From: Rhodobacteraceae bacterium D3-12
Lineage (GTDB): Bacteria > Pseudomonadota > Alphaproteobacteria > Rhodobacterales > Rhodobacteraceae
Length of the DNA: 64,000 nt
Reading direction: 5' to 3'
NCBI GenBank assembly: GCA_025916135.1
Contig: CP104793.1
Span: 2,852,001 to 2,916,000 of the forward strand
This document shows positions 32,563-47,859 of this stretch, in pieces. Each line of letters starts with the position of its first letter. Positions within the stretch are counted from its first letter, which is position 1. The notes beneath the pieces are model-generated. The model made no database searches. It had not been told where the DNA came from and saw only the letters and a list, made by a program, of their open reading frames with translations. The translations under genes and the position numbers were made by a program.

Positions 32563-33578
32563 ATGACCGAGATGGCCTTTACCCCCGTGTTTTCTCAGGG
32601 ATTCAGCCATCAGGCGGATTGACCCTTGGCAATTACCTTGGCGCGCTGAAACGTTTTGCCGATGCGCAAGACAAGGGGATCGAGACGATCTATTGCATGG
32701 TCGACCTGCACGCCATCACCGTCTGGCAGGATCCCGCGGCGCTGCGTCGCCAAACGCGCGAGCTGGCGGCCGGCTTCATCGCCTCGGGCGTTGATCCGGA
32801 AAAATCCATTCTTTTCAACCAATCCCAAGTTGCGGAACACACACAGCTTGCTTGGATTTTCAACTGCGTTGCGCGCATGGGCTGGATGCAGCGCATGACA
32901 CAATGGAAAGACAAGGCCGGTAAAAACCAGCAGAACGCCTCGCTCGGATTGCTGGCCTATCCGTCGTTGATGGCCGCTGACATCCTGATTTATCACGCCA
33001 CCCATGTGCCGGTGGGCGAGGATCAGAAACAGCACCTCGAGCTGACGCGCGACATCGCGACCAAGTTCAACCACGACTATGGCGTTGATTTCTTTCCCAT
33101 TACGGAACCGGTGATCGAAGGCGCGGCAACCCGCGTGATGTCGCTGCGTGACGGGTCAAAGAAAATGTCGAAATCCGATCCTTCGGATGCCAGCCGGATC
33201 AACATGACCGACGATTCCGACACGATCGCCAAGAAAATCCGCAAGGCCAAAACCGACCCCGAAGCTCTCCCCTCCGAAGCCAAAGGGCTCGAGGACCGCC
33301 CGGAAGCGCGAAACCTTGTTAACATTTATGCGGCACTGTCCGACCAAAGCGTTGATCAGGTGTTGCAGGAGATGGGCGGCAAGCAATTCTCGGAATTCAA
33401 ACCCCTTCTGGCCGATCTTGCCGTTGATAAAATGGCACCGATTTCGGGCGAAATGTCGCGTTTGATGGGCGATGTCGACGAAATTGACCGCATCCTGAGC
33501 CGAGGCGCAGAACGCGCCCGCGAGATCGCCGCGCCAATTCTGAAGCGCACATATGAGATTGTCGGCATGGTTCGTTAA
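32563..33578 (+). CDS. trpS: Tryptophanyl-tRNA synthetase (frameshift near the N-terminus)
   Basis: A class I aminoacyl-tRNA synthetase charging tRNA-Trp. The Rossmann entry [12 protein letters not shown] (HIGH equivalent) and KKMSKSD (KMSKS loop) are intact, as are [14 protein letters not shown] and the C-terminal region. The natural start is the ATG at 32563, with GGAG 6-7 bp upstream, reading MTEMAFTP. It connects to [11 protein letters not shown] only if one C is added to the five-C run at 32582-32586, giving 338 residues. The main frame is open upstream without a convincing start. This pattern indicates a sequencing deletion rather than a dead essential gene. Confidence 0.92.
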
Positions 33579-33590
33579 GCTTTGATTAAC
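33575..33590. promoter_or_regulatory. CtrA-like box TTAAGCTTTGATTAAC at the trpS end
   Basis: A perfect TTAA-N7-TTAAC site spanning the trpS stop codon. It lies about 250 bp upstream of the aminotransferase gene, inside a 264-bp gap that otherwise shows only a weak stem (GCTTG...CAAGC, about 33602-33623) and C-rich sequence. Confidence 0.45.
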
Positions 33591-43676: not shown

Positions 43677-45202
43677 TCAAGCGTCTTCCTGATCAAGCTC
43701 GAGCGGTGGTGGCGCCGCCACAAGGTCCTCTGTGGTCAGGGGATATTCTGGTTTTGACAGTCGGTTCCGCACGACCCAGAAAAGCCGCTCTTGCGCGCGT
43801 GTAATGGCCACATAGGCCAGCCGCTTCCAAAGCGGTTGTCCGGCTTCGACGCGCCCCATTCGAGCCGCGACAAACAGGTCCGGCGCAAAAACCTGCACGT
43901 TCTCCCATTGTGAGCCTTGCGCCTTGTGAATCGTCACCGCAGCCCCGTGCAGGAACGTCGCTCCCATGCCGGCGGCAAAGGGGATAAACGGCTCTTCTTC
44001 GTCTGGCTTCTCAATCTTAACGATGGAGGCCGCCGAGACTCTGGGGTCCGGCGCGCCCACAACGTGCAGCTTTGAAAATCCAGGCTTGCGCCCCGGTCCG
44101 AGATAAACGACCTGCGCCCCTTTGATCAGCCCTCGTGCCTCAAGATCAAGCCGACGCTTGCGGTGTTTGAGTGGCAGTTCGATCCCATCGCAGATCAACG
44201 GCTCACCCGACAAAAGCGCGTCCTCTGGCGCGCCATGAACACGCCGAAACGCATTGATCAGCCGGATGCGCGTCGCGTTGCGCCAAACAAGAACGGGGCT
44301 GCGTGCCATCAGGTCCACCTCAACCCGCTGCCCCCAAATCACGCGATCATCCTTTTTGGCTGTTTCTTCAACAAGCCCTTCGAAGTCTTGAAATCCGACC
44401 TCAGGATCAGAAAGCACATGGGCGAGATCGAGGATCGGGTTGCTCGCATCCTGCCGGTGTACCCGGCTAAGCTCAAGCTTGGCTGGTGCGTTCAAACGGT
44501 CGAATACCATCGTCCCGGACTGTTTGACCGGAGCCAACTGCGCCGGATCTCCAAACAACAAAAGAACGGGAAAAATCTCTTTTAGATCATCGAATTGCTT
44601 GTCATCAAGCATCGACGCCTCATCGACAAAACCGATGTCGAGCGGTTCATCTCGTCGCTTCCAACCCGTGATAAAATCTGATCCCCGCAACCCCGCGGCA
44701 GCCAAGGCGCCGGGATCGAGCGGTTCTGCTTGTAAAACGCCATCGCTCGTTCAAGCGCCACTTCGGTCAGGCCTTCGATCTCGGGCTTGTCCCCTTCGCC
44801 GGCAAGCCACGCGGCCATGCGCTCATATTCAGGGTCATACATCGGCGTATACAGGATGCGATGGATCGTGGTTGCCGGAACGCCCTGCATGCGCAAAACG
44901 CTCGCCGCTTTGTTGGTCGGGGCAAGGATCGCCATGGATCGACGCTCTTTGCGACGGCGGCTTTCATAATCGCCGCTAATGATCTCTACGCCGCTGTCTT
45001 CGAGGGCATCAAACAGTTTCGAAAGAAGCATGGTTTTGCCCGAACCTGCCTTGCCCATCACGGCCATGACCATCCCGCTTTGCTCTTTCGCAGGAACCAT
45101 AGCGCCATCTTCCAGATCGACACCCTGCCCTCGCAGCGCCTCGGTTATCTGGTCAAACGCATCGGCTTGATCATGCGAAAAAGTGATGGGGGTGGACGAC
45201 AT
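43677..45202 (-). CDS. RecD/UvrD-like ATP-dependent DNA helicase (frameshifted)
   Basis: An SF1 helicase of about 508 residues once repaired. The N-terminal part has Walker A (MGKAGSGKT, about residue 50) and APTNKAA (motif Ia). The C-terminal part has FVDEASMLDD (motif II), FGDPAQLAPVKQSG (motif III) and the late TIHKAQGSQW and AITRAQERL (motifs V and VI). The two parts are in different frames; the junction is at about 44700-44712 in NRSIPA/LAAAGLRGSD, and one added base restores continuity. It resembles the stand-alone RecD-type AAA helicases of Rhodobacterales rather than RecBCD. Role not known. Confidence 0.83.
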
Positions 45203-45486: not shown

Positions 45487-46215
45487 TTAGACAACGATAA
45501 GCCCGCGTGTCAGCGCCCGCGCCACTGCGTGTGTCGTATTCGACGCGCCAAGCTTTAGACGCGCGGATTCGATATAAACCCGAAGCGTATGTTCGGAAAT
45601 CGACAGCGTGTCCGCGACTTGAGCGCGGCTGTATCCCATCGCCAGAAATGTCATCGCGTCGACTTCCCGCGGTGACAGGGTTTGTACCTGGGCCGGTGTC
45701 CGGTTCGGCTCAAAGTAAAGCGCCTTGTGATTGAAAAAGTGAGCGATCAGAATGAGCGAGCGGCAGTTCTTTTCAGTGAACTCGGCCCATGCCGCATCAT
45801 CACAGCAATGCGAAACTGTAAACACCGCGAATTGGCCATTTGGCCCACGGATCGGAACAGAAAACCCCTGATTCCCGACGCCATAGGCAAGCGCATCTGC
45901 TAGAAAAGCCCGCGCCGCTTTGCTGCTCCAATCAAGGCGCTTCCAGTCAACGGGGTTAAACCGTTGATAACACCCCTGCACAACAGGATCGACGCGAAGG
46001 TATTCCTTTTCCAGATAGCGTTGCACCCATTCAGGCGAATAGGTTCCGCAGCCATATTGATCGCCTGCGCTACTGACCCAATGATAGATAAGGTGATCGA
46101 CTTCAAAGTGATCTCTAACGCGCTCTGAAAACGACTGAAGCGCCTCCGGTTTAGTGGCGCGTTCCAAGCCTTCCAAGATTGCGTTCAAATTGCTTGCTTT
46201 CAGACTTCGCGTCAA
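45487..46215 (-). CDS. LuxR family regulator with autoinducer-binding domain (solo)
   Basis: About 242 residues. The N-terminal domain has the Y/W/D pattern of the acyl-homoserine-lactone pocket (LIYHWVSSAGDQYG, YSPEWVQRYLEKEYLRVDPVV). The C-terminal GerE-type helix-turn-helix is LSPREVDAMTFLAMGYSRAQVADTL then SEHTLRVYIESARLKLG. No luxI-type synthase is in the window, so it looks like a solo. The start is uncertain: the TTG at 46215 has GGGGAGG 9 bp upstream, and a TTG at 46188 is possible. It overlaps the preceding small gene by about 65 bp, implying coupling. Confidence 0.85.
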   Translation of the reverse strand: MTRSLKASNLNAILEGLERATKPEALQSFSERVRDHFEVDHLIYHWVSSAGDQYGCGTYSPEWVQRYLEKEYLRVDPVVQGCYQRFNPVDWKRLDWSSKAARAFLADALAYGVGNQGFSVPIRGPNGQFAVFTVSHCCDDAAWAEFTEKNCRSLILIAHFFNHKALYFEPNRTPAQVQTLSPREVDAMTFLAMGYSRAQVADTLSISEHTLRVYIESARLKLGASNTTHAVARALTRGLIVV

Positions 46216-46360
46216 TGAGCTGGCCCTCCCCTGAGGACGCGATCTCGGCAGTGGCAACAAGCGCCGTTTCCTCCAACTGAATTGCCAAACTGGCAAGTCC
46301 ATTGTTTTGAGCAAACGTTTTTAGATCCGCGAGAACGTCCAATATCCAGTCCTTTTTCAT
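46151..46360 (-). CDS. 69-residue protein preceding the LuxR regulator
   Basis: A small soluble protein, MKKDWILDVLADLKTFAQNN..., with a predicted helical N-terminal half (LASLAIQLEETALVATAEIA) and a polar C-terminus. It belongs to no characterised family, but similar short ORFs occur upstream of LuxR-type genes in Rhodobacterales. A CtrA-like box lies 23 bp upstream of its ATG, where a promoter is expected. It may modulate the regulator or simply lead its transcript. The leader has only a weak GAG-type ribosome-binding site. Confidence 0.65.
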   Translation of the reverse strand: MKKDWILDVLADLKTFAQNNGLASLAIQLEETALVATAEIASSGEGQLIDAKSESKQFERNLGRLGTRH

Positions 46361-46382
46361 AACGAGTCTCGCTTTTAAAGAG

Positions 46383-46398
46383 TTAATGAAGGATTAAC
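46383..46398. promoter_or_regulatory. CtrA-like box TTAATGAAGGATTAAC upstream of the small gene and luxR
   Basis: A perfect TTAA-N7-TTAAC site, 23 bp upstream of the ATG of the 69-residue protein on the minus strand. CtrA controls quorum-sensing, motility and gene-transfer-agent genes in several Rhodobacterales, so control of this LuxR solo by CtrA is plausible. Confidence 0.6.
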
Positions 46399-46513
46399 AC
46401 AACCTTAGCAGTTTGAGGTTTTTTGGAAACTCACGCAATTATACTCCCCAAAAATAGCGAGGCGCTTAAATACAAGGCATTGTTTTTTTATGCCGGGTCC
46501 AGCAACGCGCAAA

Positions 46514-46566: not shown

Positions 46567-47859
46567 TTAGGATGCTTTTCCGGCTTCCAGGACTTCTTCA
46601 ACCGTGCGTAGGCCGGTTTTTGGCGCTTGAACCAACACGGCCATATTGCCCGGCTTGTGTTCGTTCTTCATCATCTTGACATGCGCATCGGGGATTTCCG
46701 CCCAAGGGAAGACCTCGGACATGCAAGGATCAATTCGCCGCTCAACCATCAAGCGGTTGGCCGAAGCTGCTTGTTTGAGGTGGGCAAAGTGGCTGCCTTG
46801 AAGACGCTTTTGGTGCATCCACATATAGCGCACGTCAAAGGTACAGTTGAACCCGGATGTGCCGGCACAAATCACGACCATACCGCCCTTTTTACAAACC
46901 AGCGTAGACACCGGGAACGTCGCCTGACCGGGGTGTTCAAACACGATGTCGACATTGTTGCCCTTGCCGGTGATATCCCAGATCGCCTTGCCGAACTTGC
47001 GCGCCTCGGTGAACCATTGCTTGTATTCGTCCGAGTTCACCTCGGGAAGCGCACCCCAGCACTTGAAATCCTTGCGGTTGATCACGCCCTTGGCGCCAAG
47101 GTCCATCACAAATTCACGCTTGCTCTCATCCGAGATGACGCCAATTGCGTTGCCCCCTGCGGCGTTGATCAGCTGGATCGCAAACGACCCAAGACCACCC
47201 GACGCCCCCCAGACCAAAACATTCTGACCCGGCTTGAGTTCGTGTGGGTGATGGCCGAACAGCATCCGGTACGCGGTGGCCAGCGTCAGCGTATAACACG
47301 CGCTTTCTTCCCAGGTCAGATGCTTGGGGCGCGGCAAAAGTTGCTGCGCCTGCACACGGGTGAATTGCGCGAAGGATCCGTCATGGGTCTCATAACCCCA
47401 GATCCGCTGCGTCGGCGAAAACATCGGATCGCCGCCATTACATTCCTCGTCGTCGCCATCATCCTGGTTACAGTGGATGACAACCTCGTCGCCGACCTTC
47501 CAGGTTTTTACCTTGTCACCGACTTTCCAAACGATGCCCGACGCATCGGACCCGGCAATGTGATAAGGCTGTTTGTGGCTGTCAAAAGGCGAGATCGGAA
47601 CGCCCAGACCAGCCCAGACACCGTTATAGTTAACGCCCGCAGCCATCACGAGAACCAGAACTTCGTGGCTGTCGATTTGCCATGTGTCAACGACTTCGAC
47701 TTCAAACGACTTGTCCGGTTCGCCGTGGCGCTCGCGGCGGATCGCCCAAGCGTACATCTTGGGCGGCACAAAGCCGAGAGGCGGCAGTTCACCGATTTCG
47801 TACAGTTCTTTTTCAGGCGCGTCGTATGCCGCGATTCCGGTGTCGGTATCCAGTGCCAT
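46567..47859 (-). CDS. ccr: Crotonyl-CoA carboxylase/reductase
   Basis: A 430-residue MDR-superfamily enzyme that reductively carboxylates crotonyl-CoA to ethylmalonyl-CoA with NADPH, the key step of the ethylmalonyl-CoA pathway for acetate assimilation. Diagnostic blocks: AAGVNYNGVWAGLGVPISPF, the nucleotide-binding WGASGGLGSFAIQLINAAGG and FEHPGQATFP, which is characteristic of Ccr rather than simple crotonyl-CoA reductases. The length and the nearby ecm gene support the call. GGGAG lies about 6 bp before the ATG. A 20-bp imperfect palindrome lies 77 bp upstream. Confidence 0.95.
   Translation of the reverse strand: MALDTDTGIAAYDAPEKELYEIGELPPLGFVPPKMYAWAIRRERHGEPDKSFEVEVVDTWQIDSHEVLVLVMAAGVNYNGVWAGLGVPISPFDSHKQPYHIAGSDASGIVWKVGDKVKTWKVGDEVVIHCNQDDGDDEECNGGDPMFSPTQRIWGYETHDGSFAQFTRVQAQQLLPRPKHLTWEESACYTLTLATAYRMLFGHHPHELKPGQNVLVWGASGGLGSFAIQLINAAGGNAIGVISDESKREFVMDLGAKGVINRKDFKCWGALPEVNSDEYKQWFTEARKFGKAIWDITGKGNNVDIVFEHPGQATFPVSTLVCKKGGMVVICAGTSGFNCTFDVRYMWMHQKRLQGSHFAHLKQAASANRLMVERRIDPCMSEVFPWAEIPDAHVKMMKNEHKPGNMAVLVQAPKTGLRTVEEVLEAGKAS

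Follow-up and report, generated by a model that had tools for sequence, protein, structure and literature searches.

How CtrA is wired to quorum sensing is an open question in Rhodobacterales, and the locus described here raises it in a concrete form: a short open reading frame (ORF) with a CtrA-type box directly in front of it overlaps a luxR gene that has no luxI beside it. The window, meaning the whole 64,000-nt stretch of DNA that was analysed, covers positions 2852001-2916000 of a one-contig, 4.5-Mb genome (G000). The original prediction read this arrangement as a CtrA box driving a LuxR solo whose expression is coupled to the translation of the small protein. Read on the minus strand, the genes are ccr, the small ORF, luxR and a RecD-like helicase. 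The two outer ORFs are presumably ccr and the helicase, names that follow PMC3824088 and not a family search. The features, in window positions and in the direction of transcription, are as follows.

46567-47859, minus strand: upstream neighbour, presumably crotonyl-CoA reductase (ccr), named from the published B topology.
46444-46461, minus strand: imperfect conserved dyad CTCGCTATTTTTGGGGAG (CTCNC-N7-GGGGAG), candidate LuxR operator.
46402-46410, minus strand: extended -10 promoter element TGCTAAGGT, adjoining the box upstream, read from the sequence with a pattern taken from relatives.
46382-46398, either strand: CtrA-type box GTTAATGAAGGATTAAC, with TTAA-N7-TTAA at 46383-46397.
46151-46360, minus strand: small ORF of 69 aa, with a conserved core (residues 1-42, predicted helical hairpin) and a variable, disordered tail overlapping luxR.
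46224-46233, minus strand: Shine-Dalgarno sequence of luxR (CAGGGGAGGG), within the small ORF.
46151-46215, minus strand: overlap of the small ORF and luxR, 65 nt, frame +1, the frame relation being identical in 129 of 130 loci.
45487-46215, minus strand: LuxR-type regulator (Autoind_bind and GerE domains), 242 aa from a TTG at 46215; a longer mechanical ORF reaches 46314.
43677-45202, minus strand: downstream neighbour, presumably a RecD-like ATP-dependent helicase, named from the published B topology; two overlapping ORFs with an apparent frameshift.

The reading that best explains these features as a whole, to which we give a probability of about 0.7, is that the locus is the head of a B-topology quorum-sensing operon that has lost its luxI, with a three-element promoter gated by CtrA and a real small protein as its first product. 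Much of the case comes from relatives, where the search for the small ORF upstream of LuxR genes that had been proposed with the original prediction was productive. With the single sequence as query, the ORF was found in 22 of 61 genomes, its own included, all 22 belonging to the same family; a profile of those 22 sequences detected it in 285 of 395 Rhodobacteraceae genomes and in 3 of 387 genomes drawn class-wide, all 3 again within the family. Loci were parsed from 142 distinct genomes, a genome found twice being counted once. LuxR comes next in 130 of these loci (LuxR+) and is missing in 12 (LuxR-), a share that is underestimated because the set was drawn from the half of the hits with the better scores, about 143 of the 285 genomes lying outside it. 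No LuxR was detected at E<=1e-20 in any of the 12 genomes with LuxR- loci, and in the five such loci examined for it the helicase is directly next after the small ORF.

The LuxR of the window belongs to the AHL-binding LuxR family, matching PF03472 (Autoind_bind) at E 2.6e-36 and PF00196 (GerE) at E 1.4e-11, with roseobacters (Marimonas, Tateyamaria, Roseovarius) among its best named matches. The start that agrees with relatives is the TTG at 46215, after AGGGGAGG, and not the earlier one at 46314 in the mechanical ORF list. The six AHL-pocket residues listed in the available part of PMC11655674 (W, Y, D, P, W, G) are all identical to those of QscR 3szt in an alignment read by eye.

Across relatives, the usual continuation of luxR is luxI, found next in 124 of 130 loci; of the 80 named loci, 73 have it. 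Detection relied on a motif and on a profile made from the sequences that this motif hit in the named loci, with a Pfam check in 80 genomes. The genome's own divergent orphan LuxI had served poorly as a query, finding luxI in 0 of the 80 named loci, and was replaced by this search. No luxI was found after luxR in G000, G001, G019, G199, G094 and G402, where three of the six stretches (L085, L110, L130) end 558-636 bases after luxR. Pfam gave one LuxI each in G000, G001 and G019, covering three of the six, and all of these lie elsewhere in the genome. Between the window luxR and the helicase, no luxI remnant was seen by eye in the three frames. Both genomes of the genus that were searched (G000 and G001) lack luxI at the locus, and LuxR pN/pS between these two is 0.21. 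Because luxI follows luxR in 124 of 130 loci and not in these two, the window LuxR is a solo by luxI loss: luxI would have gone in this genus and left LuxR as a receiver. The claim that no luxI-type synthase is present holds beside the window luxR and fails for the genome, which has one at G000:C1:3323714, and the label of a solo, as first applied, gives way to an operon of the form small ORF, luxR, luxI from which the last gene is missing in both genomes of the genus examined. The locus is the head of a ccr-linked B-topology operon (LuxR-beta, or LuxR2-type as in D. shibae), whose full form is small ORF - luxR - luxI; ccr upstream and the helicase downstream are present here, and luxI directly 3′ of luxR is absent. 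This also gives it the arrangement of LuxR solo group 2, CR - luxR - helicase without luxI.

Several observations surround this account. The genome's single luxI (G000:C1:3323714-3324223) adjoins a response-regulator ORF and has no adjacent Autoind_bind luxR, resembling the orphan luxI topologies in the accessible portion of PMC3824088. A second Autoind_bind LuxR (G000:C1:1908358) lies close to a ribosomal protein S2-like ORF, as judged by eye, and resembles the published LuxR solo group 1 (near tsf). The helicase 3′ of the window luxR is read in two overlapping ORFs (44582-45202 and 43677-44705) and in a single long frame in relatives; the split is an apparent frameshift, real or a sequencing error. 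Single genomes show signs of decay: luxR is split between frames in G014, a luxI match at G248:C14:1434043-1434465 contains an internal TAA, and the luxI match at G141:C1:2969645-2969809 is short. In G036, the same small ORF, box and -10 occur with luxI adjacent.

The box that started the inquiry is real. TTAATGAAGGATTAAC lies at 46383-46398 on the plus strand, and TTAA-N7-TTAAC is matched on both strands (minus match at 46382-46397); as first described, it directly precedes the small ORF, with a spacing to the ATG of 22 bases and not 23. Taken alone, such a motif is weak evidence, with 27 genome-wide matches against 16 for the reversed pattern; the evidence is its conservation at a fixed position. 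A perfect TTAA-N7-TTAA lies 33-38 nt before the ATG in 110 of the 130 LuxR+ loci (111 if a locus with its first box at -47 is included) and in 0 of the 12 LuxR- loci, and each of three upstream control windows gave 0. Among the LuxR+ loci, 19 have no perfect box in -60..-15, and 3 of the 12 LuxR- loci retain a TTAAC half-site in the box region. The perfect box is found in 71 of the 80 named loci, and when LuxR sequences are clustered at 70% identity, 20 of the 24 clusters include a locus that has it. Spacer positions 5-6 carry almost no information (0.18 and 0.05 bits), so shared descent alone does not explain why the eight fixed bases are kept. Since the small ORF and CtrA persist in the 12 LuxR- loci from which the box has been lost, box and small ORF are separable. 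Another perfect TTAA-N7-TTAAC, matched on both strands, occurs in the window at 33574-33590, near an ORF end and 268 nt before the next ORF.

When the 110 loci are anchored on the box, TGCTATRGTT appears directly upstream and a purine-rich ribosome site downstream. The extended -10 pattern TGnTAnnnT is perfect in 97 of 130 LuxR+ loci (3.5 in shuffles) and in 0 of 12 LuxR- loci, four of which keep four of its five bases. Further upstream, the dyad CTCNC-N7-GGGGAG is complete (10/10) in 76 of 130 loci and matched at 9 positions or more in 104; at that level, a control window yields 1 of 130 and the 12 LuxR- loci none; among the 80 named loci, 56 have an exact dyad near the ORF, and one exact copy occurs elsewhere in these loci. 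Because the loci scored for the -10 and the dyad are also those from which the two patterns were derived, it is the controls and the LuxR- loci that carry this argument. By this comparison, the promoter is a three-part module, in the order dyad, extended -10 and box, and apparently a new one. From its position and co-occurrence, the dyad is a candidate LuxR operator; the literature searched held nothing useful on an ExpR-type operator. A wider LuxR regulon reached through the dyad was considered and rejected, as the exact 18-base match occurs only at the locus itself and the pattern, at up to 3 mismatches, is not enriched genome-wide (133 matches against 187 for the reversed pattern). Five of the 8 further hits with 1-2 mismatches were fetched; three (L271, L273, L275) are inside ORFs, and one (L274) sits between ORFs in a larger hairpin-like repeat. 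On the preferred reading, LuxR or another dimeric regulator would act at the dyad, a σ70 polymerase would start within or beside the box, and CtrA~P would bind the box and gate the operon.

The regulator needed for such gating is at hand. The genome carries both sequence features of a CtrA regulon member, a TTAA-N7-TTAAC box and a ctrA gene, the product of which has 74% identity to the Caulobacter CtrA sequence used as query. CtrA was detected in 79 of 80 genomes, G007 being the exception, with partial matches in G023 and G341. All 12 LuxR- genomes are among the 79, and for this reason absence of CtrA was rejected as the cause of box loss. No perfect box was seen at obvious classic CtrA genes in the 19 stretches holding the genome's other sites (by eye), nor in a 3-kb stretch around ctrA.

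What CtrA would do at the box is less clear, since two lines of evidence conflict. The start predicted for the extended -10 promoter is covered by the box, which would lie at about -35 only relative to a possible second start at the small-ORF ATG. According to the part of PMC4287350 available, full CtrA motifs of Caulobacter are mostly at -35 and activating, and one full motif there is thought to repress a start for which its 5′ end is at -14 and to activate another for which it is at -39. By this geometry, a box covering the predicted start would repress it. In D. shibae, by contrast, the luxR2I2 operon has two perfect CtrA sites and its expression is lower in ctrA, cckA and chpT mutants, as given in the portion of PMC4046655 consulted, which points to activation. 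The sign of CtrA action is thus uncertain here, while net CtrA dependence is likely by analogy with the D. shibae mutants. Control by CtrA, as originally proposed, fits a conserved CtrA-type box tied to luxR and a CtrA in the genome; a box "driving" the genes is unsupported in that form, with the box on the predicted start.

The alternative that survives best takes the geometry at face value: CtrA~P would directly repress the promoter by covering the transcription start, and the effects of the D. shibae mutants would be indirect. Speaking for it are the Caulobacter motif at -14 and the extended -10, which adjoins the box upstream in 97 of 130 loci; the drop of luxR2I2 expression in D. shibae ctrA mutants speaks against it. 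It is a tentative but serious possibility.

Next comes the original prediction itself, in which CtrA acts as an activator at the box and luxR is translated only when the small ORF is. Here the D. shibae mutants count in favour, as does the position of the luxR start inside the small ORF in a fixed frame, confirming the predicted 65-nt overlap of a 69-residue ORF. The luxR gene starts 44-80 nt (median 59) before the small ORF ends, and 129 of the 130 loci have it in frame +1; starts were picked by a heuristic within a set window, which bounds this range, and 3 of 129 loci without a start there were left out. Against it, the box lies just downstream of the conserved extended -10 and not at its -35, and luxR has a ribosome site of its own. 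The site pairs with 16S rRNA at a median of -5.3, against -1.7 at random places (starts having been picked partly for pairing), and in predicted folds it is unsequestered, with an accessibility of 0.397 against a background of 0.384. Sequestration of the site by RNA structure was accordingly dropped for want of a signal, 57 of 126 loci being below their own mean. Moreover, three of 22 family genomes without a small-ORF match have a LuxR at E<=1e-20. In G099 (69%) and G064 (47%), it follows ccr without the ORF, the box and, by eye, the dyad; in G079 (39%), it is a distant LuxR in another context. LuxR without the ORF in G099 and G064 and the ORF without LuxR in 12 of 142 loci mean that each gene survives without the other. 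Obligatory translational coupling is therefore not supported, and the prediction in its full form is rather unlikely. The overlap looks like compact packing, because the luxR start and its ribosome site lie in the last ~27 codons of the small ORF, which are unconstrained in their own frame.

A more elaborate and still less probable scheme would have CtrA operate a two-promoter switch and would place the small protein in a new family of helical-hairpin regulators linked to CtrA within the Rhodobacteraceae. As long as CtrA~P is absent, transcription from the extended -10 promoter, with LuxR assisting from the dyad, would yield an mRNA for the small protein and LuxR; CtrA~P on the box would block that start and activate a second one at or just inside the small-ORF ATG, and this second mRNA would skip the small-protein ribosome site and keep that of luxR. 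A second start there is conceivable because the 5′ end of the box is 33-38 nt from the ATG, about the distance for CtrA activation. Mapped CtrA promoters of R. sphaeroides, in the part of PMC6180460 available, have 12-33 bp from start to start codon. If true, the switch would reconcile the geometry with the D. shibae mutant data.

Slightly behind it stands the idea that the palindromic GTTAA-N7-TTAAC box is an operator of LuxR itself and not of CtrA. The box is missing in 12 of 12 LuxR- loci though CtrA is present in all 12 genomes, and in G007, where LuxR and a perfect box occur together, CtrA gave no match at E<=1e-70, through an assembly gap or a true loss. However, the box consensus is asymmetric (C in 90% after the second TTAA, G in 53% before the first), as fits a CtrA direct repeat, and the separate dyad already fits a LuxR site. 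Boxes also precede paralogs of the small ORF that have no luxR. On balance, this idea is improbable. In 35 of 36 genomes with at least two small-ORF hits that were searched again (G380 was missed), 20 stretches were fetched and 27 paralogs read. TTAA-N7-TTAA occurs within 120 nt upstream in 5 of the 27, where 0.07 are expected and at most 2 were seen in 500 shuffles; 3 of the 5 come from one genome (G132), two of these being near-copies. The paralogs concerned, in stretches L261, L278, L283 and L284, have no LuxR and carry the box 57-82 nt upstream. This suggests, without proving, a CtrA-linked small-protein family. One paralog (G261:C81) lies ~100 nt downstream of a luxI, which suggests that the family is connected to quorum sensing in another way as well. 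In G325:C4, two paralogs flank an ORF that by eye resembles a CBS-GGDEF diguanylate cyclase. Overall, the paralog neighbourhoods, inspected by eye, are too varied to indicate a function.

As for the small ORF, its substitution pattern marks it as a real protein gene under purifying selection in its core. In raw proportions, with synonymous sites near saturation, pN/pS over codons 1-44 is 0.26 for 498 pairs of LuxR+ loci and 0.36 for the LuxR- loci, where there are only 7 pairs, and in the tail it is 0.97 (137 pairs); the tail is shaped by luxR. An AlphaFold2 model gives a two-helix hairpin (helices 5-19 and 23-42), with a block pLDDT of 83-98 for residues 1-40, followed by a tail of low confidence. 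That the ORF is merely a leader or spurious, its conservation a by-product of luxR and the promoter, is very improbable: its C-terminal third is indeed unconstrained in its own frame, but the core is constrained, is kept without LuxR, has a confident predicted fold and exists in stand-alone paralogs. The protein has no credible match in Pfam, NCBIfam, PHROGs, PDB or fold libraries, and Foldseek gave none below E 0.001 in PDB or viral libraries. No description was found in the literature searched, which covered few subscription journals; the figure 2 legend of PMC3824088, a source available in part, lists conserved hypothetical proteins. Apparently, then, this is a new, family-restricted helical hairpin with paralogs. 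We favour a role in the circuit that joins CtrA and quorum sensing, as a helical adaptor or regulator acting as a dimer, since boxes also precede some of the LuxR-less paralogs.

Among known systems, the closest is the roseobacter B-topology R-beta/I-beta operon (Cude and Buchan 2013, PMC3824088), which shares the upstream ccr, luxR and the downstream ATP-dependent helicase; luxI is missing here, and the accessible parts of that paper do not mention the small ORF. LuxR solo group 2, "CR - luxR solo - helicase" (Subramoni et al. 2015, PMC4338825), has the same luxI-less context, with AHL-pocket residues unchanged, whereas the small ORF and promoter module are not described in the available text. 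CerM/CerN of Cereibacter sphaeroides are LuxR proteins likewise wired to CckA/ChpT/CtrA, but these act, indirectly, on ctrA, and PMC11655674, in its available part, groups CerM with GtaR/LuxR1. Finally, D. shibae luxR2I2 (Wang et al. 2014, PMC4046655) has CtrA-type sites in the luxR2 promoter, as here, with luxI2 present there and luxI missing here. The gene directly behind the box is an apparently undescribed small-protein gene and not luxR, so earlier luxR2I2 mutants and reporters may have touched it, which is worth checking. For D. shibae and other existing model strains, the locus also supplies definite targets for mutation, namely the gene, the box, the dyad and the predicted start site. 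The same paper, as far as its available portion goes, presents the CtrA sites that precede quorum-sensing genes as gained independently and in a scattered way; in contrast, the box studied here keeps a fixed position within a single operon promoter in 110 of 130 loci.
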